Both the position numbers and the translations under genes were made by a program. Positions 32,147-42,777 of a stretch of 64,000 nucleotides of DNA are shown in pieces. Origin of the DNA: Maribacter spongiicola (GTDB taxonomy: Bacteria > Bacteroidota > Bacteroidia > Flavobacteriales > Flavobacteriaceae); the NCBI RefSeq assembly GCF_004364165.1, contig NZ_SOAY01000010.1:124001-188000 (forward strand), read 5' to 3'. How positions within the stretch are numbered: the first letter of the stretch is position 1; every line of letters begins with the position of its first letter. Under the pieces are notes generated by a model. That model did not search any database and was not told the origin of the DNA. It worked only from the letters and a program-made list of their open reading frames with translations.

Positions 32147-32181
32147 CTTTAGATTCTCTTTAGAAAAGGACTTTAAATTTA
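32147..32181 (+). promoter_or_regulatory. Direct-repeat box CTTTA-N6-CTTTAGA plus -7 box, response-regulator gene
   Basis: CTTTA at 32147 and 32158 (11-bp period), then TAAATTTA at 32174-32181, exactly 16 bp after the second repeat. The start codon follows at 32210. The same layout precedes three other units up to 42217. Confidence 0.65.
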
Positions 32182-32209
32182 TAGGTATGAAAGTCCTAAC
32201 TTTAATCAG

Positions 32210-32884
32210 ATGAAAATTTTAATCGTAGAAGATGAGATTGCCCTTTTACAAGCCATCGCCAATTATTTGGAAAAAGATGGTAATGTATGTGAAACAGCAT
32301 CTACCTATGAAGATGCCCTTTATAAAACTGACCTCTATGAATATGACCTTTTAGTGCTTGATATTAATTTAATTACCGGTAGCGGCTTAGACATTCTTCA
32401 GTTCTTAAAAAAAGAAAAAAAAGAGACGGCGACTATTATTATTTCTGCAAACAACTCATTAGATGATAAACTTAAAGGACTTGATTTGGGTGCAGACGAT
32501 TACTTGACCAAACCTTTTCATTTAGCCGAACTCAATTCTAGAATTAAAGCTGTTCTTCGAAGAGGTAAATTTGGAGGTTCTGAACGATTGAAGTTTAATG
32601 AAATATCAATAGATACCAGAGCGAAAGTTGCCTATATCAATAATCAGACTATGGCACTTACACGAAAAGAATATGACTTACTTTTATTCTTCATTACAAA
32701 TAAAGGTCGCGTACTTTCTAAAGAAATAATCGCAGAACATTTATGGGGCGACCATAGCGATATGCTCGATAATTACGATTTTATATATGTGCATATTAAT
32801 AACCTACGCAAAAAATTGACCGATGCAGGTGCTAAATATATTAAAACGGCATATGGCAGTGGTTATAAATTTATAGAAGATTAA
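32210..32884 (+). CDS. OmpR-family response regulator of the envelope regulon
   Basis: 224 residues. Receiver domain with phospho-acceptor D51 in LLVLDINL, DADDYLTKPF-type switch lysine (GADDYLTKPF near 98-107), and a winged-helix domain from about 128 (YDLLLFFITNKGRVLSKEIIAEHLWG; AYGSGYKF). It forms an operon with the kinase at 32888 (3-nt gap). Regulators of this class bind direct repeats with 10-11 bp phase; four such repeats lie in front of this gene and its neighbours. It is therefore the probable activator of the region, including itself. Confidence 0.92.
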   Translation: MKILIVEDEIALLQAIANYLEKDGNVCETASTYEDALYKTDLYEYDLLVLDINLITGSGLDILQFLKKEKKETATIIISANNSLDDKLKGLDLGADDYLTKPFHLAELNSRIKAVLRRGKFGGSERLKFNEISIDTRAKVAYINNQTMALTRKEYDLLLFFITNKGRVLSKEIIAEHLWGDHSDMLDNYDFIYVHINNLRKKLTDAGAKYIKTAYGSGYKFIED

Positions 32885-32887
32885 TGA

Positions 32888-34147
32888 ATGGGCGAGCAAT
32901 CAAAAAAAATAGGGTTATTACATAAAACTTCGAAAACATTTCTATCGGTAAGCCTGGTATTAATGGTTATTAGTACAATAGTACTTTTTTTTTACGTTCG
33001 TAATCTTTTACAAAATGAAATAGAAGAAGAGCTGCGTTCTACCGAAGCGAGAATAGAAAGTTCCATTTCTAACTATAGCCAAATGTATCAGCTGCCACCC
33101 ATGGTTGAAGTTACAGAGGTTTCTACCTTAGGTGTTGAGCATTTAAAAGACACTCTAATATTCGATCCATCTCAGAACGAAATGGAAGATTTTCGAGAGC
33201 TAATTACCTATTCAAAAATCAATGATCATAATTATCAGATTACTGTGCGTACACTTATTGTTGAGTCTGAAGATATTTTGATCGCCGTAATCGTTTCTTA
33301 CTTAATTGTCATCTTTTCTGTATTTGTCTTTCTCTTTTACTTAAACAAATCTAGAACACAAAAACTATGGAGTCCCTTTTTTAAGAACTTAGAACAAATG
33401 AAAAAATTTTCATTGACTTCAGAGATTCCTATTTCTTTAGAAGACAGTACAATTTTAGAATTTTCAGAGCTTAATACAGAAATTACCACCTTAACCGATA
33501 AAGTACGCTCAGACTATAAAAACCTGAAGCAGTTTACAGAAAACGTATCTCACGAATTACAAACCCCGTTGGCAATAATTCAGGCTAAAATAGATACCAT
33601 TATAAATGGTGAAGAACTTAATGAGTTTCAGTTTGAGCAGTTATCGTCTATTCAAAATGACATTCAGCGGCTTAAACAACTAAACAAAAGACTTGGGCTA
33701 CTTTCAAAAATAGAGAATTACCAGTTTCAAAACCTTACTGCGTGTTACTTAAACGCTATTCTAAAACATAGAATTGAAAACTTAGCAGATCTCTATTCCG
33801 TAACTATCATATTTAAAAACAATGAAGATGTTATTCTTATGATGGATGCCTATTTAGCGGAAGTTCTATGCGATAATTTGCTGTCTAACGCAATTAAACA
33901 TGCAACCCCTAAAACCCCAATTACCGTAGTATTGGATAAAAATTCATTGACATTAGAAAATAATGGTACCAAGGCTATTTTGAAACCAGAGCTATTATTT
34001 CAGCGCTTTTACAAAGAATCTGAACATATAAAATCAACTGGGTTGGGCTTGGCAATCGTTAAAAAAATATGTGATCTTTATAATTTTACACCATCCTACA
34101 GCTACAAAAACGAAACACACTTTTTCACCATTTCATTTGTAAATTAA
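32888..34147 (+). CDS. Sensor histidine kinase of the envelope regulon
   Basis: 419 residues. Helix 1 (about 17-38), a periplasmic stretch of about 100 residues, helix 2 (about 139-160), then HisKA with H222 in FTENVSHELQTPLA, and a HATPase domain (LCDNLLSNAIKHA; STGLGLAIVKKI). No HAMP is obvious. The signal is unknown; the genes it probably controls handle membrane lipids and divalent ions, so cation, antimicrobial peptide or lipid damage are reasonable guesses. Confidence 0.9.
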   Translation: MGEQSKKIGLLHKTSKTFLSVSLVLMVISTIVLFFYVRNLLQNEIEEELRSTEARIESSISNYSQMYQLPPMVEVTEVSTLGVEHLKDTLIFDPSQNEMEDFRELITYSKINDHNYQITVRTLIVESEDILIAVIVSYLIVIFSVFVFLFYLNKSRTQKLWSPFFKNLEQMKKFSLTSEIPISLEDSTILEFSELNTEITTLTDKVRSDYKNLKQFTENVSHELQTPLAIIQAKIDTIINGEELNEFQFEQLSSIQNDIQRLKQLNKRLGLLSKIENYQFQNLTACYLNAILKHRIENLADLYSVTIIFKNNEDVILMMDAYLAEVLCDNLLSNAIKHATPKTPITVVLDKNSLTLENNGTKAILKPELLFQRFYKESEHIKSTGLGLAIVKKICDLYNFTPSYSYKNETHFFTISFVN

Positions 34148-34154
34148 TAATCAT

Positions 34155-34189
34155 CTTAAAGGTATCTTTAGATTCTACACGTATCATTG
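34155..34189 (+). promoter_or_regulatory. Direct-repeat box plus -7 box, outer-membrane protein operon
   Basis: CTTAA at 34155 and CTTTA at 34166 (11-bp period), then TATCATTG at 34182-34189, 16 bp after the second repeat. Because this box covers TTG 34187, the true start codon must be the ATG at 34208. Confidence 0.6.
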
Positions 34190-34207
34190 CACACAAAAGT
34201 TGATCTC

Positions 34208-36625
34208 ATGAAAAAGATTTTATCCGTAGTACTACTCCTTTGCTTCTTTATACCTGGCTTTTCTCAAAATTCGGTAACTGTAACAGGGCAATTAAGTGAT
34301 GGTGTTACACAAGAAACGTTACCCTTTGCCAATGTAACCGTACAGAGTGCTGTAGATAATTCGATGATTACAGGTGCTATTACAGATGAAAATGGGCTAT
34401 TCGAAATTTTAGGATTGCCAACAGGTAAATACAGTTTAGTCTTCTCTTTTATAGGCTATGAATCTGTAACCAAACCTTTGATCGCTGGCGGTCTAAATAG
34501 CATTTTTAATCTTGGGCAAATTTTACTGCAACCAAGCGCCGAGCAACTTGCCGAAGTACAGGTTATAGGTCAAGAGGCCTCTACCAATAGCGACCTCAAC
34601 AAAAAATCTTTTAATCTTGATAATAACATCGCGCAAGCAGGCGGCTCGGTTTTAGATGCCATGAAAACAATGCCAGGGGTTACATTTGATCAAGATGGGA
34701 AAGTAGTTTTAAGGGGTAGCGATAAGGTAGTTGTTCTTATAGATGGTAAACAAAGTAGCTTAACCGGCTTTGGTAACCAAAAAGGCTTGTCGAACATACC
34801 GGCTTCAAATATTGAAAAAATTGAAATCATCAATAACCCATCGGCAAAATATGACGCCAATGGTTTTGCCGGTATCGTCAATATTATCTACAAAAAGGAA
34901 ACTCAAAACGGACTTAACGGTGATGTTGGTTTGTCTTTTGGGTTGGGTGCCTTAGGCAAGCGAATACCCGATACGCCTACAGATTTAGGAAGTTTTTCGG
35001 TAAACCCGAAACTTATACCAAGTATAAACCTTAATTATAGAAAGGGTAAACTAAACTACTTTTTACAGTCAGAATTTATTGTTCAAGAAGCCCTGCCAAA
35101 TAACGAGTTTACTACAAGAAACTATGATGATGGGCGCAACGTTATTTCGCAGGTACCAGAAAATAGAAAGCAATTTCGCTCTATCATAAATGGTGGTATC
35201 GACTATAATTTAGATGATAAGAATAGCTTTACATTTTCAGGGCTATACGACAGAGAGCGACATATAGACACTTCGCAAGTAGCATTTATAGATTTAAATA
35301 CCAATAGTAGAAACCGATTTTACACTTGGGAAGAAGAAGAAGTTACTAGATATATAAATGCCGCTATCAACTACAAACATTCATTTGAGCAACCTGGGCA
35401 TAACCTAAGTGCCAATGCACAATACACCCAAGGTTTAGAAGATGAAACATATTCTTTGAACGACAGCTCTGCAGTTCGTATCGGTAGAGATAAAACCAAT
35501 ATTAGAGCAATTGAAAACACTACTAGCTTAGCCACCGATTATGTAAAACCATTGAGTAACGGTAGACTAGAACTTGGCGCAAAACTTCGTATTCGGAGGC
35601 TACCTGTAGATTATACCATAACCCCTGGCAATGAATCTATAATTTACCCAGGTTTAGGTACTTTCTCTGACTGGGGAGAAAACCTTTATGCCGGTTATGT
35701 AAATTACCTTCTAGAGAAAGAATTCTACGATATTGAAGCAGGATTACGTGCCGAACAGACCGATGTTTTTTATGATCTAGACCCCGCGAACACCTATTAC
35801 CCAAATAATGATGCCTATGATTATTTTGAGCTTTTCCCCAGTGCGCGTTTTACCTTTAAGCTAAACGAAAACAATAAAATATCTGCTTTTTATAATCGCC
35901 GTATCGATAGACCGGGCGAGCCAGAATTACGGGTGTTTCCAAAATATGACGATCCAGAACTTCTAAAAGTGGGCAACCCCTATTTACGCCCTCAATTTAC
36001 CGATGCTTTTGAAGTTGCCCATAAATACTCTTGGTCTAATGGATCTTTATTTTCTGCCGTGTACCATCGAATTATTCAAGATCAGTACATGCGTATTTTT
36101 AGTATCGATGATTCTGACCCCAATTACGATATCGTAAATCGAATTTATCAAAATACGGGTAGGGCGACGAATACAGGTTTAGAGCTATTATTGAGTCAAG
36201 ATCTTACTGAAAACTGGAGTCTTTCTAGTACGGTAAACTGGTACTCGAATGCCATAGACCAATACGAAGGTACTGTGCTTTTCCCTTTCGTTAGACCGTT
36301 TGTGATTGAAGAATCTACCGCCAATGCTTGGAACGCTAAACTGTCTTCTGAGCTTAACTTACCGAGCGACTATACTTTTCAAGTAACAGGCGTTTACTAT
36401 TCTGATAAAAACATTCCGCAAGGTAAAGAGCTTTCTCGCTACTCTGTAGACTTAGGGGTTAAGAAAAGTCTTTGGAACAAAAAGGCAGAACTTACCTTCT
36501 CTGCTACCGACATTTTCAACCGATTTGGTATTCGACAAGAAGTTACCAATGCCGGTTTTACTGCTATCTACCAAAATTATTTCGAGACCCAACTTTTTAG
36601 ATTGGGCCTGAAATATAAAATTTAA
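34208..36625 (+). CDS. Outer-membrane beta-barrel (TonB-dependent-receptor-like) protein
   Basis: About 805 residues from ATG 34208, which opens a clear signal peptide (MKKILSVVLLLCFF, cleavage near GFSQN). Residues about 22-110 form a carboxypeptidase-regulatory-like beta sandwich. A plug-like region follows (SNIPASNIEKIEIINNPSAKYDANGFAGIVNI), then a long barrel of the OMP_b-brl_3 type to the end (RLGLKYKI). No SusD partner is present, so glycan uptake is unlikely. It heads a five-gene run with DUF347, MgtC-, DedA- and DUF1003-type proteins. Confidence 0.88.
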   Translation: MKKILSVVLLLCFFIPGFSQNSVTVTGQLSDGVTQETLPFANVTVQSAVDNSMITGAITDENGLFEILGLPTGKYSLVFSFIGYESVTKPLIAGGLNSIFNLGQILLQPSAEQLAEVQVIGQEASTNSDLNKKSFNLDNNIAQAGGSVLDAMKTMPGVTFDQDGKVVLRGSDKVVVLIDGKQSSLTGFGNQKGLSNIPASNIEKIEIINNPSAKYDANGFAGIVNIIYKKETQNGLNGDVGLSFGLGALGKRIPDTPTDLGSFSVNPKLIPSINLNYRKGKLNYFLQSEFIVQEALPNNEFTTRNYDDGRNVISQVPENRKQFRSIINGGIDYNLDDKNSFTFSGLYDRERHIDTSQVAFIDLNTNSRNRFYTWEEEEVTRYINAAINYKHSFEQPGHNLSANAQYTQGLEDETYSLNDSSAVRIGRDKTNIRAIENTTSLATDYVKPLSNGRLELGAKLRIRRLPVDYTITPGNESIIYPGLGTFSDWGENLYAGYVNYLLEKEFYDIEAGLRAEQTDVFYDLDPANTYYPNNDAYDYFELFPSARFTFKLNENNKISAFYNRRIDRPGEPELRVFPKYDDPELLKVGNPYLRPQFTDAFEVAHKYSWSNGSLFSAVYHRIIQDQYMRIFSIDDSDPNYDIVNRIYQNTGRATNTGLELLLSQDLTENWSLSSTVNWYSNAIDQYEGTVLFPFVRPFVIEESTANAWNAKLSSELNLPSDYTFQVTGVYYSDKNIPQGKELSRYSVDLGVKKSLWNKKAELTFSATDIFNRFGIRQEVTNAGFTAIYQNYFETQLFRLGLKYKI

Positions 36626-36636
36626 TATCTAGCCTT

Positions 36637-37389
36637 ATGAACTCCCTAAATAAGGTCGCCCAGGTTACCCTGTTATTTTGGTTAATGAAAATTGTCGCTA
36701 CCACTCTCGGCGAAACTTTAGGTGATTTTATTGCACAAACGTTGGGCTTAGGTTATACGGTCGGTATTTTAATAACCCTAACTTTTTTCGGTATCGCCCT
36801 TATCATTCAGTTGACCCGAAAAAAATACATACCGGTGTGGTTTTGGTTGGTAATTATTGCCACCACAACATTAGGTACCGAAATATCAGATTTTATTGAT
36901 CGCAGCCTTAACCTAGGTTATACATGGGGGAGTCTTTTATTGTTTCTAGGTCTGTTGACCACGTTATTCTTATGGAATAAAAAATATCATCATCTGGTGG
37001 TATTTCCAATTCTAGATCGCAATACCGAAATTTATTACTGGATCGCTATTTTATTCTCAAATAGTCTCGGTACCGCATTCGGCGATTATTTGAGTGATGT
37101 AATAGGGTTAAGTTATTTGAGCGGAGCCTTCGTCACTGCAAGTATCATAGTACTCGTCGTATTACTACATTACTTTACAAAGATTAACGAAATCATCCTT
37201 TTTTGGATCGCCTTTATTTTTACTAGACCTTTCGGCGCTACATTTGGCGATTTTTTGACCAAACCGATAGTAAAAGGAGGGCTCGATTTAGGGACATTGA
37301 ATGCATCGATCGTGTCTATAATTTTAATGGTGATCTTAATTGGTATTTCTCATCGATTAGAAAATGCAAAATTGAATGGAAAACAATAA
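36637..37389 (+). CDS. DUF347 (COG4705-type) membrane protein with four repeats
   Basis: 250 residues, about eight helices. The motif T-LG-x3-GDF-x7-LGY occurs four times: TTLGETLGDF (22-31), TTLGTEISDF (about 78-87), NSLGTAFGDY (about 140-149) and RPFGATFGDF (about 197-206). Such repeats define DUF347 proteins, of unknown function. The acidic residue in each repeat lies next to a helix and could bind ions; this is inference. It begins 11 nt after the outer-membrane protein gene. Confidence 0.85.
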   Translation: MNSLNKVAQVTLLFWLMKIVATTLGETLGDFIAQTLGLGYTVGILITLTFFGIALIIQLTRKKYIPVWFWLVIIATTTLGTEISDFIDRSLNLGYTWGSLLLFLGLLTTLFLWNKKYHHLVVFPILDRNTEIYYWIAILFSNSLGTAFGDYLSDVIGLSYLSGAFVTASIIVLVVLLHYFTKINEIILFWIAFIFTRPFGATFGDFLTKPIVKGGLDLGTLNASIVSIILMVILIGISHRLENAKLNGKQ

Positions 37390-37436
37390 ATACCAAAGAC
37401 CACTATTCATTCAATGTATTTAATATCTTTAAGAAA

Positions 37437-37859
37437 ATGATTATTTCAGAATTTATCTTCAGATTGGGAGCGGCACTTTTAGCCGGTCTCGCCATTGGCT
37501 TCGAACGACAGTGGCACCATAAAACTGCTGGTCTGCGCACTAATTTATTAGTCGCAACAGGTGCTGCAGTATTTGTTTTGATTTCTTTCGAGTTGAAAGA
37601 GAGCGAATCTAGTATTGACACCTCTCGTATTATTGCCCAAGTTGTAACAGGTGTGGGTTTTTTAGGTGCAGGCATTATTTTTCGGGAAGGTAATAATGTT
37701 CATGGCCTAACCTCAGCAGCAACTATTTGGTGTAGTGCTGCAATTGGCTGTCTGGCGGCTTCGGGTTTTTTTATAGAAACCCTTGTATGTACCATAACCG
37801 TAATAGTAGTCAATTCGTTTTTAACTCCGCTAGACAAATGGTTGAAAAACAGAAAATAA
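37437..37859 (+). CDS. MgtC/SapB-family membrane protein
   Basis: 140 residues with four helices. RLGAALLAGLAIGFERQW, KTAGLRTNLLVATGAAVF, QVVTGVGFLGAGIIFREG and GLTSAATIWCSAAIG are the MgtC family marks. It lacks the C-terminal ACT-like domain of virulence MgtC, which makes it the short SapB-like form. In other bacteria members support growth at low Mg2+ or modulate ATP synthase. Its place here suggests response to divalent-ion or envelope stress. Confidence 0.9.
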   Translation: MIISEFIFRLGAALLAGLAIGFERQWHHKTAGLRTNLLVATGAAVFVLISFELKESESSIDTSRIIAQVVTGVGFLGAGIIFREGNNVHGLTSAATIWCSAAIGCLAASGFFIETLVCTITVIVVNSFLTPLDKWLKNRK

Positions 37860-37877
37860 AAAGACAAAAAAACACCT

Positions 37878-38411
37878 ATGTTTCATTCCGTACTACTATA
37901 TGCTGCACTTTTTTTGGGAGTATTCTTAGAGGGTGAATTTGTGTTACTTTCAGCAGTTATTGCAGCACACCACGGCTATTTAAATATTTGGTTGGTCATT
38001 ATAACCGCAATAATAGCCACAATTGGTTCTGATCTTTTTTATTTTAATATCGGTAAACATAAAGTTTCTCGCTTCGTTAATAATGGTAAGTGGTCAACTA
38101 AAATGAGCGGGGTTAAAAAGAGATTTGAAAACCATAGAATACAAACTCTTCTCGGTTATCGCTTTCTATATGGGTTTCGCGTTATTACACCTATTTTCTT
38201 AGGTACTCAAAATATAACCGCTAAAGAGTTTCTGAAATTTTCACTTTTAGGCACACTAATTTGGGCAACAATAATTACCGGATTGGGTATATTCTTTGGC
38301 GAATTAATAATTAGATACCTGAATGACCTTGAAAAAGTTGAATTCTATATTATTGGTGCTCTTCTAATAATCGCTTTGCTATCTATACTCTTTCGATTTA
38401 AAAAAAAGTAA
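37878..38411 (+). CDS. DedA/VTT-family membrane protein
   Basis: 177 residues. EGEFVLLSAVIAAHHGYLN at residues 17-35 and GYRFLYGFRVITPIFLGTQNITAKEFLKF near 95-125 are the VTT-domain motifs, including the F-R-x4-P segment. Recent work on the family points to transport of undecaprenyl phosphate or phospholipids across the membrane. It fits the lipid theme of the region. It ends 1 nt before the DUF1003 gene. Confidence 0.88.
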   Translation: MFHSVLLYAALFLGVFLEGEFVLLSAVIAAHHGYLNIWLVIITAIIATIGSDLFYFNIGKHKVSRFVNNGKWSTKMSGVKKRFENHRIQTLLGYRFLYGFRVITPIFLGTQNITAKEFLKFSLLGTLIWATIITGLGIFFGELIIRYLNDLEKVEFYIIGALLIIALLSILFRFKKK

Positions 38412-38412
38412 T

Positions 38413-39111
38413 ATGAATACATTTACTAGCAGTATTTCTAAACAAGAATTTCCAAAGAGCGAACAAGTTTTTGGTAACACGATACGAAAATCAATTTTTG
38501 ATGTAATTCTAAGTGACTACCCTAGCTTCAATAAAAAAAATTCAATATCTATTACTGAACTTAACCTGTATCGCCAAAAATATCTTTCTGGTTATTTAGT
38601 AAAAGAGGTTGGTGAGCTTTCCCATTTAGAAGAAGATGTTCTAAAGACATTGAACGACCATGAAATTATCTCAGAAAAGGAGGGTGAGGGAACTACCAAA
38701 TCGAGCTTCGGTCAACAACTTGCTGATAAGGTTGCCGCATTTGGCGGCAGCTGGAAATTCATCATAATTTTTGCACTTATTATTTTCTTTTGGATTTCTG
38801 CGAATATCATTTTATTGGCAAACAAAGGTTTTGACCCGTACCCCTTTATTTTACTTAACCTTATTTTATCATGTTTAGCGGCACTTCAAGCACCTGTAAT
38901 TATGATGAGCCAAAATAGGCAAGAAGAAAAAGACCGCGAAAGGGCAAAGCAAGATTATATGGTCAATCTAAAGGCTGAACTTGAAATTCGTACACTTCAT
39001 GAAAAAATAGATCATTTAATAATACATCAGCAGCAAGAGTTATTGAATATTCAACAAATACAGGTTGAAATGCTTGAAGATATTATGAAGCAAATCAATC
39101 CGAATACATAA
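38413..39111 (+). CDS. DUF1003 membrane protein
   Basis: 232 residues. A soluble N-terminal half is followed by GQQLADKVAAFGGSWKFI, two helices (about 115-135 and 142-162), and MMSQNRQEEKDRERAKQDY with a coiled tail (EIRTLHEKID). This is the DUF1003 pattern; function unknown. It is the last gene of the operon started at 34208. Confidence 0.88.
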   Translation: MNTFTSSISKQEFPKSEQVFGNTIRKSIFDVILSDYPSFNKKNSISITELNLYRQKYLSGYLVKEVGELSHLEEDVLKTLNDHEIISEKEGEGTTKSSFGQQLADKVAAFGGSWKFIIIFALIIFFWISANIILLANKGFDPYPFILLNLILSCLAALQAPVIMMSQNRQEEKDRERAKQDYMVNLKAELEIRTLHEKIDHLIIHQQQELLNIQQIQVEMLEDIMKQINPNT

Positions 39112-39209
39112 AATTTTACATTCTAATCCGAAAACTAATTTTCAATACATATAACGCTATATATCAATTGGTTATTTGCATCTAATAAATATTATTTCAT
39201 CTACTAAAA

Positions 39210-39244
39210 CTTTAACTCCTCTTTAGAATCGGCATGTACATTTA
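39210..39244 (+). promoter_or_regulatory. Direct-repeat box plus -7 box, LTA-synthase-like operon
   Basis: CTTTA at 39210 and 39221 (11-bp period), then TACATTTA at 39237-39244, 16 bp after the second repeat; the start codon is at 39273. Confidence 0.65.
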
Positions 39245-39272
39245 GGCTCAAATTAGTCTAATTACAGTATAT

Positions 39273-41258
39273 ATGTTGACCTATCTTTTTCCTAAGCGCT
39301 TTTCTCTACTTAAAGCATTTGTGTTACTATTTATTTCTTTATCATTCTTGGTTCGGCTCACATTTTTTATATGGGGGTTTTCTGAGGTAGATGCCCATTT
39401 GGGTGCTATTATAAAAACCTTCATTACAGGGCTATTCTACGATGTTGGTACGCTCTCTATATTTATGATGCCCTTTTTGTTATACCTATTCATTTTTCCG
39501 AAAAAATGGTACGGTTCTTTGGTAGATAGAGCCATTACCTGGTTCGGATTCTTTATTGCTATTTTGATCATCTATTTTTCATTCTTCGGCGAGTTTACTT
39601 TTTGGGACGAATTTCAACGTCGATTCAACTTTATAGCGGTAGACTATTTAATCTACACCTATGAAGTTGTTAAGAATATTAATGAATCATATCCGCTTCC
39701 ATTGCTATTAGGCACGCTTATTTCATTGGTAGCACTTACCCTATTTATCAGCTTTAAAAGAAAGGTTTTTCACGCTACTTTCAAAAATGAAACAACCTTT
39801 AAACAACGAGCTTTTGCAACTTTGCCTTGGGTTGCCATTTGTGTCTTCTTTTCTTTCTTCATTACAAATGCTCAAGCAGAATGGTCAAAGAATAGGTATA
39901 ACAACGAAATATCTAAGGCAGGTATCTATTCGTTTTTTGCAGCTTTTAGAAATAATGAACTCGCCTTTTCTGAATTTTATAGCACCATGCCAGAAACAGA
40001 GGCATTTGCTAATGTAAAGAACCAGTATCTGCCTTTTAAAGTTGAATTTACACATCCAAATAAAAATGAAATCTACAGAACGGTTCATACCTTAGACACT
40101 ACTATTGTCGCACTAAAACCCAATGTCATATTTATCTGTATAGAAAGCCTGAGCGGCAAGTACTTAAATAGCTTGGGTAATGATGAAAATATCACTCCCG
40201 TTTTAGACTCCCTTGCAAATCACAGTCTATTCTTCAATAATCTATACGCGACAGGCACACGTACGGTTCGCGGTATGGAAGCTATCACACTTTCTATACC
40301 ACCAACACCCGGTAGAAGTATTGTAAAACGAAGTAATAATACCGGACTTTTTACCATCGGTGAAGTTTTTAAAAATCAAGGGTACGACCGTAATTTCTTT
40401 TATGGTGGTGATGGCTATTTTGATAATATGAATACCTTTTTTGGAGGAAACGGATTCAATATTATTGATAGAGGGCGTGGCTTTCTTTTAGATGAGGCAA
40501 TTACCGTAAAACGCACTAATATTGAAGACGATGAGGTTACCTTCGAAAATGCATGGGGTGTTTGCGATGAAGATATTTATAACAAGGTGCTTAAAGAAGC
40601 CGATATTGCCCATGAATCTGGCAAACCGTTTTTCGATTTTGTCATGACAACTTCGAACCATAAGCCTTTTACATATCCTGAAGGGAAAATAGATATACCT
40701 TCTGGTACAGGTAGAAATGGAGCCGTAAAATACACCGATTTTGCTATTGGTGCCTTTTTAAAAGAAGCCCAAAAGAAACCTTGGTTCGCAAATACCGTAT
40801 TTGTAATTATGAGTGATCACTGTGCAAGTAGTGCGGGCAAGTGGGAACTTGATGTAGCAAACTATCATATACCTGCCTTTATATATAATCTACAGAACAA
40901 ACCACCCGCTAAAATTAATACGCTTTGTTCTCAGATAGACGTTTTCCCTACCTTATTTTCTACCTTGGGGTGGAATTATGAAAGCAACCTTTTTGGTATG
41001 GATATTTTAAAAATGAGACCACAAGATGAGCGTGCTTTCATTGGAAACTACCGAAAATTAGGATACCTGAAAGACAATAAAGTAATGGTGCTGGGCGATG
41101 GTGAAACTGTTAATTTTTATGATTGGAATGCACTTGACAATAGTTTAAAAAATACCACAATGGACGAGTCTTTTAAAAAATTGGCGATTTCGAACTACCA
41201 AGTAGCAGATGAGCTGTACCACAATGGCGGACTCCAATTAAAATCTCTAAAAGAATGA
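39273..41258 (+). CDS. LTA-synthase-family sulfatase-fold enzyme (phosphoglycerol/phosphoethanolamine transferase type)
   Basis: 661 residues. Five N-terminal helices (to about residue 205) precede a sulfatase/alkaline-phosphatase-fold domain: IFICIESLSGKYLN with the metal-binding Glu, TGTRTVRGMEA with the probable catalytic Thr, FFYGGDGYFDNMN, and VIMSDHCAS. The Gram-negative members are thought to transfer phosphoglycerol or phosphoethanolamine from phospholipids to glycans or lipids. Transfer from phosphatidylglycerol releases diacylglycerol, and the next gene (4-nt overlap) is a diacylglycerol kinase-like enzyme, which supports that reaction. The acceptor is unknown. Confidence 0.88.
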   Translation: MLTYLFPKRFSLLKAFVLLFISLSFLVRLTFFIWGFSEVDAHLGAIIKTFITGLFYDVGTLSIFMMPFLLYLFIFPKKWYGSLVDRAITWFGFFIAILIIYFSFFGEFTFWDEFQRRFNFIAVDYLIYTYEVVKNINESYPLPLLLGTLISLVALTLFISFKRKVFHATFKNETTFKQRAFATLPWVAICVFFSFFITNAQAEWSKNRYNNEISKAGIYSFFAAFRNNELAFSEFYSTMPETEAFANVKNQYLPFKVEFTHPNKNEIYRTVHTLDTTIVALKPNVIFICIESLSGKYLNSLGNDENITPVLDSLANHSLFFNNLYATGTRTVRGMEAITLSIPPTPGRSIVKRSNNTGLFTIGEVFKNQGYDRNFFYGGDGYFDNMNTFFGGNGFNIIDRGRGFLLDEAITVKRTNIEDDEVTFENAWGVCDEDIYNKVLKEADIAHESGKPFFDFVMTTSNHKPFTYPEGKIDIPSGTGRNGAVKYTDFAIGAFLKEAQKKPWFANTVFVIMSDHCASSAGKWELDVANYHIPAFIYNLQNKPPAKINTLCSQIDVFPTLFSTLGWNYESNLFGMDILKMRPQDERAFIGNYRKLGYLKDNKVMVLGDGETVNFYDWNALDNSLKNTTMDESFKKLAISNYQVADELYHNGGLQLKSLKE

Positions 41259-42142
41259 TTCGCATACACTTTATTGTAAACCCTATAGCAGGCCACGGCC
41301 ATGCTTCATTTACTAAAGAAGACCTACAGCCTTATTTTATAAGAGGTATACATGAATTGACCGTTAAAATTTCTGAATATAAAAAACATGCTACCGAATT
41401 AACCAAATCGTCTATTTTAGAAAATGCGAACATAATTGTTGCTTGTGGGGGCGATGGTACCATTAACGAAGTAGCATCATGCTTAATAGGTACCAATATC
41501 GCTTTGGGCATTTTACCCATGGGTTCTGGCAACGGGCTGGCATCTAATCTTAAAATACCTAAAAAAAGACGAAAGGCGTTAGAGATTATTAGGAATAAAC
41601 ACATCGAACATATGGATGTAGGTAAGATAAATGGTCGTTATTTCTTTAGTAATACCGGTGTTGGCTTCGATGCTAGTTTAATTAAACACTATGAGTCTTC
41701 TGAAAAAAGAACATTATTAGGCTACATACGGGCTTGTGCAACTACATTTAGAGATATCAATAAAAATACTCCTCTTTCTATTGTTGTAGATGAAGAGGTG
41801 CCTATGGCGAACCCATTTATTATTCTAATTTCCAACTCAAACGAAATGGGATATAAATTAAGCCTAACTCCAAAAGCATCGCTACAAGACGGATTATTAG
41901 ATGTTTTGGTAATTAAAAATATTAGCCGCATAAAAATGCTGTGGTTAGGGTTTTTGATTCTCATTAGAAAAGTGCATTGGCTAAAAGAATCTAGAAGTTT
42001 TCAGACCAAAAATGTACATATAAAATGTAATCAATCAGATTTCTTTGATACTCAAGTAGACGGTGAGCATAAGAGAATAGATACTAATGAGCTCACTATT
42101 TCATTAGTTGAAAAATCGTTATTTGTGCTAACACCTCAATAA
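41255..42142 (+). CDS. Diacylglycerol/lipid kinase (DagK/YegS family)
   Basis: 295 residues. HFIVNPIAGHGHA at the start, VACGGDGTINEVAS (about 64-77, ATP/Mg site), LPMGSGNGLASNL, and VGFDASLIKHYE mark the family. It phosphorylates a lipid hydroxyl, most likely diacylglycerol freed by the coupled LTA-synthase-like enzyme. Translational coupling by ATGA overlap strengthens this pairing. Confidence 0.92.
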   Translation: MIRIHFIVNPIAGHGHASFTKEDLQPYFIRGIHELTVKISEYKKHATELTKSSILENANIIVACGGDGTINEVASCLIGTNIALGILPMGSGNGLASNLKIPKKRRKALEIIRNKHIEHMDVGKINGRYFFSNTGVGFDASLIKHYESSEKRTLLGYIRACATTFRDINKNTPLSIVVDEEVPMANPFIILISNSNEMGYKLSLTPKASLQDGLLDVLVIKNISRIKMLWLGFLILIRKVHWLKESRSFQTKNVHIKCNQSDFFDTQVDGEHKRIDTNELTISLVEKSLFVLTPQ

Positions 42143-42157
42143 TGAAATAGCTTTCAA

Positions 42158-42192
42158 CTTTAAATTCTCTTTAGAATTGTAATTTAATTTTC
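42158..42192 (+). promoter_or_regulatory. Direct-repeat box plus -7-like box, PAP2 gene
   Basis: CTTTA at 42158 and 42169 (11-bp period), then TAATTTTC at 42185-42192, 16 bp after the second repeat; start codon at 42217. Confidence 0.6.
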
Positions 42193-42216: not shown

Positions 42217-42777
42217 ATGCTTACTCTTTTAAAGCCAAATTTATTTTGTACCAAACTGGCTATTCTTTTTCTTATTACCACCTCAATGCATACTTATGGT
42301 CAAGGCGATGCTATACAAACTTCAGGTGATGTACTGCTTTTTGCCATGCCGGCATCTGCACTTGCAGGTAGTTTAATAGAAGGTGATTACGAAGGTACTT
42401 TGCAATTCGCAAAAGGTTTTGCCGTTAACCAAGCTGTAACAATCGGACTTAAATATGCTCTTAATAAAGACAGGCCCTATGGTGGTGGTGAAAGAGCTTT
42501 TCCGTCTGGGCATACCTCAACAACTTTTCAAAGTGCCGCATTTATTCAAAAAAGATATGGTTGGGGTTATGGTTTACCCGCATATCTTCTTGCCGGTTAC
42601 ACTGGTTTTAGTAGAATAAATGCCAAAAAACATGATGGCTGGGATGTTCTTGCCGGTGCCGTAGTAGGTGTTGGTAGTGCCTATATTTTTACTACACCAT
42701 ACCAAAAAGAACATATGCAACTAAGCTTTTCGAACGATGCCGACAGCTTTTTACTTGGTTTCGTCTATAAATTTTAA
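42217..42777 (+). CDS. PAP2-family phosphatase
   Basis: 186 residues with a signal peptide-like N-terminus (cleavage near MHTYGQ). The three phosphatase motifs are present: KYALNKDRPYG, AFPSGHTSTTF and SRINAKKHDGWDV. The protein removes phosphate from lipid or polyprenyl substrates on the periplasmic side. It is monocistronic, with its own direct-repeat promoter box, and so joins the envelope regulon. Confidence 0.92.
   Translation: MLTLLKPNLFCTKLAILFLITTSMHTYGQGDAIQTSGDVLLFAMPASALAGSLIEGDYEGTLQFAKGFAVNQAVTIGLKYALNKDRPYGGGERAFPSGHTSTTFQSAAFIQKRYGWGYGLPAYLLAGYTGFSRINAKKHDGWDVLAGAVVGVGSAYIFTTPYQKEHMQLSFSNDADSFLLGFVYKF

Follow-up and report, generated by a model that had tools for sequence, protein, structure and literature searches.

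The PmrA/PmrB (BasR/BasS) system of Enterobacteriaceae joins an OmpR-family regulator to an operator of two head-to-tail half-sites in 11-bp phase; passages of PMC3973317 give the Salmonella PmrA boxes as CTTAAG and XTTAAT, five bases apart. In Capnocytophaga canimorsus, the lpxE-eptA operon removes the 1-phosphate of lipid A and adds phosphoethanolamine, with increased resistance to polymyxin B, and the passages of PMC4730577 that were searched name no two-component regulator for this operon. Here we analyse 64,000 nucleotides of Maribacter spongiicola (Flavobacteriaceae; contig NZ_SOAY01000010.1, positions 124,001 to 188,000; this whole stretch is called the window below), in which an OmpR/PhoB-family response regulator and its sensor kinase are encoded beside envelope genes, and four promoters share a tandem repeat at a fixed distance from the -7 box. 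The repeat resembles the PmrA box in its two head-to-tail half-sites and 11-bp phase, and differs from the box of those passages in that its CTTWARAWT units usually begin with CTTTAG, not CTTAAG. Judging from the sequence, the best overall explanation is in all likelihood an autoregulating OmpR-family two-component system that turns on outer-membrane remodelling; with still greater confidence, we propose that the repeat and the neighbouring regulator form a regulator-operator regulon.

The four sites and the two-component genes next to them are listed below; scores are from a position weight matrix (PWM) trained on 36 sites from relatives, with the window sites excluded.

32147..32181, plus strand: tandem site, CTTTAGATTCT CTTTAGA, with -7 box TAAATTTA at 32174-32181; upstream of the regulator gene
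32210..32884, plus strand: OmpR/PhoB-family response regulator, 224 aa, receiver domain PF00072 and Trans_reg_C PF00486
32888..34147, plus strand: sensor histidine kinase of 419 aa with HisKA and HATPase_c domains, the regulator's partner
34155..34189, plus strand: tandem site, CTTAAAGGTAT CTTTAGA, first half CTTAA, with -7 box TATCATTG at 34182-34189; lowest PWM score of the four, 13.9
39210..39244, plus strand: tandem site, CTTTAACTCCT CTTTAGA, with -7 box TACATTTA at 39237-39244; PWM score 34.0
42158..42192, plus strand: tandem site, CTTTAAATTCT CTTTAGA, with -7 box TAATTTTC at 42185-42192; PWM score 35.1

All four sites lie where an initial annotation of this DNA had placed them (32147, 34155, 39210 and 42158), and the 16-bp step that it described between the second CTTTA and the -7 box, each taken at its first base, is the same in all four; the first of them is predicted to be the autoregulatory promoter of the regulator gene. 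Its statement that start codons follow after 42-52 nt holds when counted from the second CTTTA (52, 42, 52 and 48 nt to the starts at 32210, 34208, 39273 and 42217, respectively); measured from the first base of the -7 box, the distances are 36, 26, 36 and 32 nt. Allowing two mismatches at most, the window contains four copies of the full motif where 0.26 would be expected, and 0 of 100 shuffles gave as many. This enrichment is partly circular, as the pattern was derived from the same four sites; hence, we place the main weight on the genomes of relatives. A scan of the whole 4.46-Mb genome (G000; 4,455,565 bases, 18 contigs), which the annotation had proposed, returned three exact matches, all of them inside the window cluster. 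The matches with one mismatch were 34155 and C1:190846; the latter was set aside as a fifth site since it lies antisense within a long open reading frame (ORF), 24 kb past the cluster, and with a PWM score of 10.1 it is probably a chance match. At up to two mismatches, the genome holds 25 matches against 18 for the reversed control, which is near background, and these sites were therefore left uncounted as regulon members, some scoring 13-18 by PWM (L036, L042, L048, L050, L052). The short repeat CTTTA-N6-CTTTA is not enriched by itself (18 in the window vs. 15.2 expected; 52 in the genome vs. 58 in the reversed control) and, being at background level, was dropped as independent evidence.

We then consider the site across a sample of 397 genomes of the family, with E 1e-75 as the threshold for a regulator relative. 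Such relatives occur in 31 of the 397 genomes, 22 at 68-100% identity (window genome included) and nine at 54-61%; the search scored only seven candidates for each genome shown, and the number of orthologs may thus be an underestimate. The degenerate motif CTTTANNNNNNMTTWAGAWNNNNNNNNTANNWTT has 72 exact matches in 42 of the 397 genomes, compared with 14 for the reversed pattern, and it is present in 23 of the 31 regulator-bearing genomes vs. 19 of the 366 others (Fisher p 2e-19, kinship ignored). Moreover, the exact sites cluster around the regulator gene: 41 of 50 are within 16 kb of it among all regulator-bearing genomes, and in the 22 genomes whose ortholog is 68-100% identical, 38 of 41 are. 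Over the 559 kb of 30 neighbourhoods (the window counted), the PWM found 98 sites of at least 12 bits, while the reversed PWM found three. The annotation had named equal frequency inside genes as an outcome that would speak against a regulon; in these relatives, 96 of the 98 sites fall outside ORFs (ATG start, at least 130 aa), which occupy 82% of the DNA. A site stands upstream of the regulator gene in 19 of the 22 close orthologs, the window's own among them. Outside the family, 19 loci (55-59% identity) have a site of at least 12 bits at the regulator in only two cases; several of the other loci carry drifted halves such as CTCCAGAAT in the same phase, as judged by eye.

The geometry of the sites indicates how the regulator would act. 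In a search with the repeat only (96 sites, 22 close-ortholog neighbourhoods), TANNWTT lies at +16 in 62 sites and in at most eight at the other offsets tried; in a search with the second half and the -7 box (49 sites), 42 have CTTWA at 11 upstream and nine have it at 22, as a third unit. The logo of the sites reads CTTWARAWT-NN-CTTWAGAWTY-N6-TAMWTTTR and lacks a conserved -33 element. According to passages of PMC6847099, the Bacteroidota -7 element, TAnnTTT, is located at -12 to -5. From this position, the two halves would begin at around -39 and -28 and cover the -33 region. Class II activators of the OmpR type bind over this promoter region, as is established for PhoB and PmrA. Two features of OmpR/PhoB-type systems are present here, namely a receiver and winged-helix regulator with a histidine kinase and a tandem operator at 11-bp spacing. 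We propose that the regulator probably acts by activation, and the geometry suggests that it may activate its own gene. Since the box overlaps the -33 region, its position is compatible with either action, and it could be read as a repressor site whose block is relieved by a signal; however, the fixed +16 phasing at many promoters and the logo without a -33 element resemble class II activation, and we regard repression as unlikely.

The remaining genes of the cluster are as follows.

34208..36625, plus strand: beta-barrel outer membrane protein with carboxypeptidase-regulatory-like and plug domains (scanned from 34211)
36637..37389, plus strand: DUF347 membrane protein, in the gene run after the beta-barrel gene
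37437..37859, plus strand: MgtC-family membrane protein
37878..38411, plus strand: DedA-like membrane protein with VTT domain
38413..39111, plus strand: DUF1003 membrane protein
39273..41258, plus strand: candidate LtaS-like membrane headgroup transferase, 661 aa, PF00884, sulfatase/alkaline-phosphatase superfamily
41255..42142, plus strand: YegS/DgkB-type lipid kinase, DAGK_cat and YegS_C domains; its start overlaps the end of the transferase gene
42217..42777, plus strand: PAP2 phosphatase, signal-like N-terminus

To call targets in relatives, the ORF next downstream of every site was compared with labelled proteins, across the same 30 neighbourhoods. Sites precede the regulator gene in 19 genomes, a PAP2 gene in 12, beta-barrel and PepSY-like genes in 10 each, an LtaS-like gene in nine and an outer-membrane efflux protein gene in eight, followed by an ArnC-like GT2 gene in two and by DUF347, epimerase and EptA genes in one each; several stretches end at contig ends, so these counts are a minimum, and the beta-barrel target of G125 (187 aa) may be a fragment. 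The efflux gene is the first in an RND-type operon with HlyD- and AcrB-family genes (scanned in G097). The EptA target, in G010, passes its NCBIfam cut-off (681.8 vs. 561) and lies divergently to the regulator gene, preceded by the site CTTAATAATTACTTAAG (CTTAAT-N5-CTTAAG); the relative of DUF347 in the same genome has sites of its own. In G097, a site-bearing PAP2 gene is followed by EptA on the same strand. In G337, the GT2 gene is followed by LAB_N and ArnT-like genes (the latter at 86.6 bits vs. a cut-off of 567), and a similar GT2/ArnT-like run, with a 544-aa member matching ArnT at 90.4 bits, follows the site-bearing PAP2 gene of G138. The target set is thus wider than the initial annotation had it, taking in PepSY-like, RND efflux, EptA and ArnC/LAB_N/ArnT-like genes. 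Its proposal of a regulon run by the neighbouring regulator stands for the regulator's own promoter, the headgroup-transferase/lipid-kinase unit and the PAP2 unit. The magnesium link that it had added is weaker or unsupported: none of the MgtC, DedA-like and DUF1003 genes has its own site, and all lie downstream of the beta-barrel gene; across the 30 neighbourhood maps, the window genome alone shows DedA and DUF1003, and it shares MgtC with G013 only.

The same target list bears on whether the regulon might be a Pho-like response to phosphate limitation, serving phosphate scavenging or lipid remodelling, with the regulator reading the repeat all the same. PhoB likewise binds 11-bp direct repeats, PAP2 is the second commonest target family, and a PhoX alkaline phosphatase gene of G138 (L253:4962-6347) is preceded by a site, which may point to a connection with phosphate. 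Bacteroides PhoB is also the regulator's second best NCBIfam match; however, the regulator stays below the cut-offs of both Bacteroides PhoB (165 vs. 270) and PhoB TIGR02154 (153.8 vs. 296.2) and was not assigned to PhoB. The kinase, moreover, is of the PorY family and matches Bacteroides PhoR at 46.9 against a cut-off of 500, and RND efflux, PepSY-like, EptA, LAB_N and ArnT-like targets do not suit phosphate uptake. On the scores of regulator and kinase and the list of labelled targets, we find a Pho-like regulon improbable and retain outer-membrane remodelling as the proposed output of the system.

The regulator and its box also vary together. Upstream sequence was available for 55 regulator relatives; at the position matching PmrA His193, 34 of them have His and 21 have Gln. 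Allowing one mismatch or none, a CTTWA box lies upstream of 18 of the 34 His-type genes and one of the 21 Gln-type genes (1 and 0 in reversed controls), and the CTTWA box together with the -7 box (up to two mismatches) upstream of 20/34 and 0/21, respectively. The TTCC-type box shows the opposite distribution, at 0/34 and 13/21 (reversed controls 1 and 1). The Gln-type paralogs (approximately 50% identity, helix YxQIKNLRKK) bear an 11-bp-phased TTCC-N7-TTYY at their own promoters in 13 of 21 cases; the upstreams are in L148-L161, L058, L059, L061 and L286.

A number of observations weigh against the reading that we favour. The loose CTTWA test (up to two mismatches) is positive in 13 of the 55 reversed upstreams and for this reason uninformative alone; the stricter test is positive in 1/55. 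The box is missing from the regulator promoter in three of the 22 close orthologs (G225, G297 and G117), and likewise in the eight neighbourhoods at 54-61% identity, most of which have sites nearby. Arg210, the closest contact of PmrA, aligns with Tyr in the regulator. EptA is present in four of the 22 genomes (in three of these within 9 kb of the regulator on the same contig) and LtaS-like in 14, the overlap being one genome; with p 0.12, a clean replacement of one by the other was rejected in favour of a mere tendency. Finally, 22 motif matches fall in 19 genomes with no ortholog at the threshold. One of these, G299, has an ortholog interrupted by a contig end, and when all candidates in the 19 genomes were rescored, only two matched the regulator, at 49-50% identity; G370 has a strong site (36.5 bits) 5' of a PAP2-like gene and no regulator ortholog at E 1e-50.

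Genomes such as G370 are what one would expect if the repeat were bound by some other factor, whether an OmpR paralog or an extracytoplasmic function (ECF) sigma factor, with the regulator gene as just one more of its targets; moreover, the binding of the regulator to the box is itself deduced from sequence. Against this, the site co-occurs and clusters with this regulator, the box covaries with this regulator's recognition helix, and an 11-bp tandem repeat, at times with a third unit at 22, in front of a normal -7 box (TAnnTTT in the passages of PMC6847099) suits a dimeric OmpR-type activator rather than the two boxes of a sigma factor. We therefore give another factor little probability and continue with the neighbouring regulator as the protein that would read the repeat. 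Chance or generic AT-rich promoter sequence, to which the background frequency of CTTTA-N6-CTTTA alone might point, is refuted as far as sequence can refute it, since the full motif greatly exceeds both shuffles and reversed controls, in relatives as well as in the window.

Some loci depart from the common arrangement. In the 54-61% group, strong sites stand after the kinase gene and not before the regulator (L169, L170, L261-L264), and in G314 and G224 sites precede small secreted-looking proteins (103-109 aa) near a gyrB-looking gene; one protein of 103 aa near the G224 sites reaches only 18.7 bits against PorD (cut-off 170). The regulator ortholog of G117 (L168) is stopped in frame after 63 codons, its promoter has no box and its neighbourhood holds one weak site; this is possibly a natural loss of the regulon. 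In a Bacteroidales record (L060:2928-2993), divergent sites of this type precede the regulator and a small lipoprotein-like ORF.

Compared with PmrAB, the regulon would work in a like manner, from which membership in PmrAB does not follow. Among the base contacts of PmrA (N188, N196, R210), N196 is retained, whereas N188 falls in a gapped stretch, opposite an Asn; His193 is also kept. EptA and ArnC/ArnT-like genes are among the targets of relatives, with a site before EptA in one genome and before an ArnC-like GT2 gene in two. However, the regulator is not a PmrA ortholog (NCBIfam NF007928, 156.5 vs. a cut-off of 330) and is no closer to PmrA than to DrrD, its best PDB relatives by phmmer being BasR/PmrA and DrrD, tied by bits; among the best 25 of its 94 NCBIfam matches, it reaches the cut-off of no equivalog. 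Unlike in PmrAB, the kinase is of the PorY family, the box overlaps a Bacteroidota promoter and the usual transferase is LtaS-like. The likeness to PorXY of Porphyromonas gingivalis lies in the kinase, which passes the NCBIfam 'PorY family' cut-off (411.7 vs. 350); its partner here is, in contrast, the adjacent OmpR-type regulator. PorX is a regulator of another type than OmpR. Since no gene of the type IX secretion system is among the labelled targets and the regulator is OmpR-type, membership in PorXY was rejected, and the PorY-family name may mislead annotation, given that the kinase passes this cut-off beside an OmpR-type neighbour.

As in the C. canimorsus operon, a PAP2-type phosphatase is paired with a headgroup transferase of the sulfatase superfamily; unlike there, the window has an LtaS-like enzyme and no EptA gene. 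The sole NCBIfam match of the PAP2 protein is LpxE, at 39.5 bits vs. a cut-off of 177. The gene order, with the YegS/DgkB-type lipid kinase behind the LtaS-like transferase, recalls the LtaS and DgkB of Gram-positive bacteria, where headgroup transfer by LtaS leaves diacylglycerol and the kinase DgkB recycles it. A relative of the lipid kinase follows the LtaS-like gene in all 10 maps that show one (10/10), and its position beside that gene fits diacylglycerol recycling. The host here, in contrast, is Gram-negative, and the enzyme is nearer to VP1736 (3lxq; 309.7 bits) than to LtaS (about 41 bits).

Hence, we envisage that a stimulus, perhaps cationic peptides, a metal or envelope damage, would activate the PorY-family kinase and lead to phosphorylation of the regulator, which would bind two CTTWARAWT half-sites head to tail at about -39 and -28, replacing a weak -33 element, and recruit RNA polymerase at the Bacteroidota -7 box. 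Its own operon and dispersed envelope operons would then go up; PAP2 would dephosphorylate and the LtaS-like transferase decorate lipid A or another outer-membrane lipid, while the lipid kinase would recycle the leftover diacylglycerol. In some relatives, EptA or ArnC/LAB_N/ArnT-like enzymes would take part in this, and the regulon would add beta-barrel, PepSY-like and RND-efflux functions. The kinase has acidic stretches, EIEEEL and PSQNEMEDFRE, and similar ones occur in close orthologs; they suggest a cation or peptide signal, and no more. The regulon looks like a Bacteroidota counterpart of the outer-membrane remodelling by which gut bacteria meet antimicrobial peptides, and resistance would be a conceivable outcome; that defence against cationic peptides or polymyxin is its main role we consider a nearly balanced question, leaning slightly to the negative.

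Outer-membrane remodelling is already known in the phylum; no paper on a regulator for it was found in the open-licence literature, which is weak evidence of absence. The findings thus yield a named regulator, an operator precise enough for genome scans, a promoter geometry and a testable list of targets, and place the unassigned LtaS-like transferase in the setting of a regulon and an operon. Somewhat more tentatively, we speculate that a Bacteroidota-wide family of regulators with a His or Gln helix uses 11-bp-phased operators fixed 16 bases before the -7 box, and that its His branch runs a PmrAB-like regulon for lipid A and envelope defence, of separate origin from enterobacterial PmrAB, in which an LtaS-like enzyme usually replaces EptA. 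If this is true, the residue aligned to PmrA His193 would be a readable protein-DNA code, His going with CTTWAG and Gln with TTCC, and this natural contrast would open the binding code of the OmpR-type regulators of Bacteroidota to direct test.

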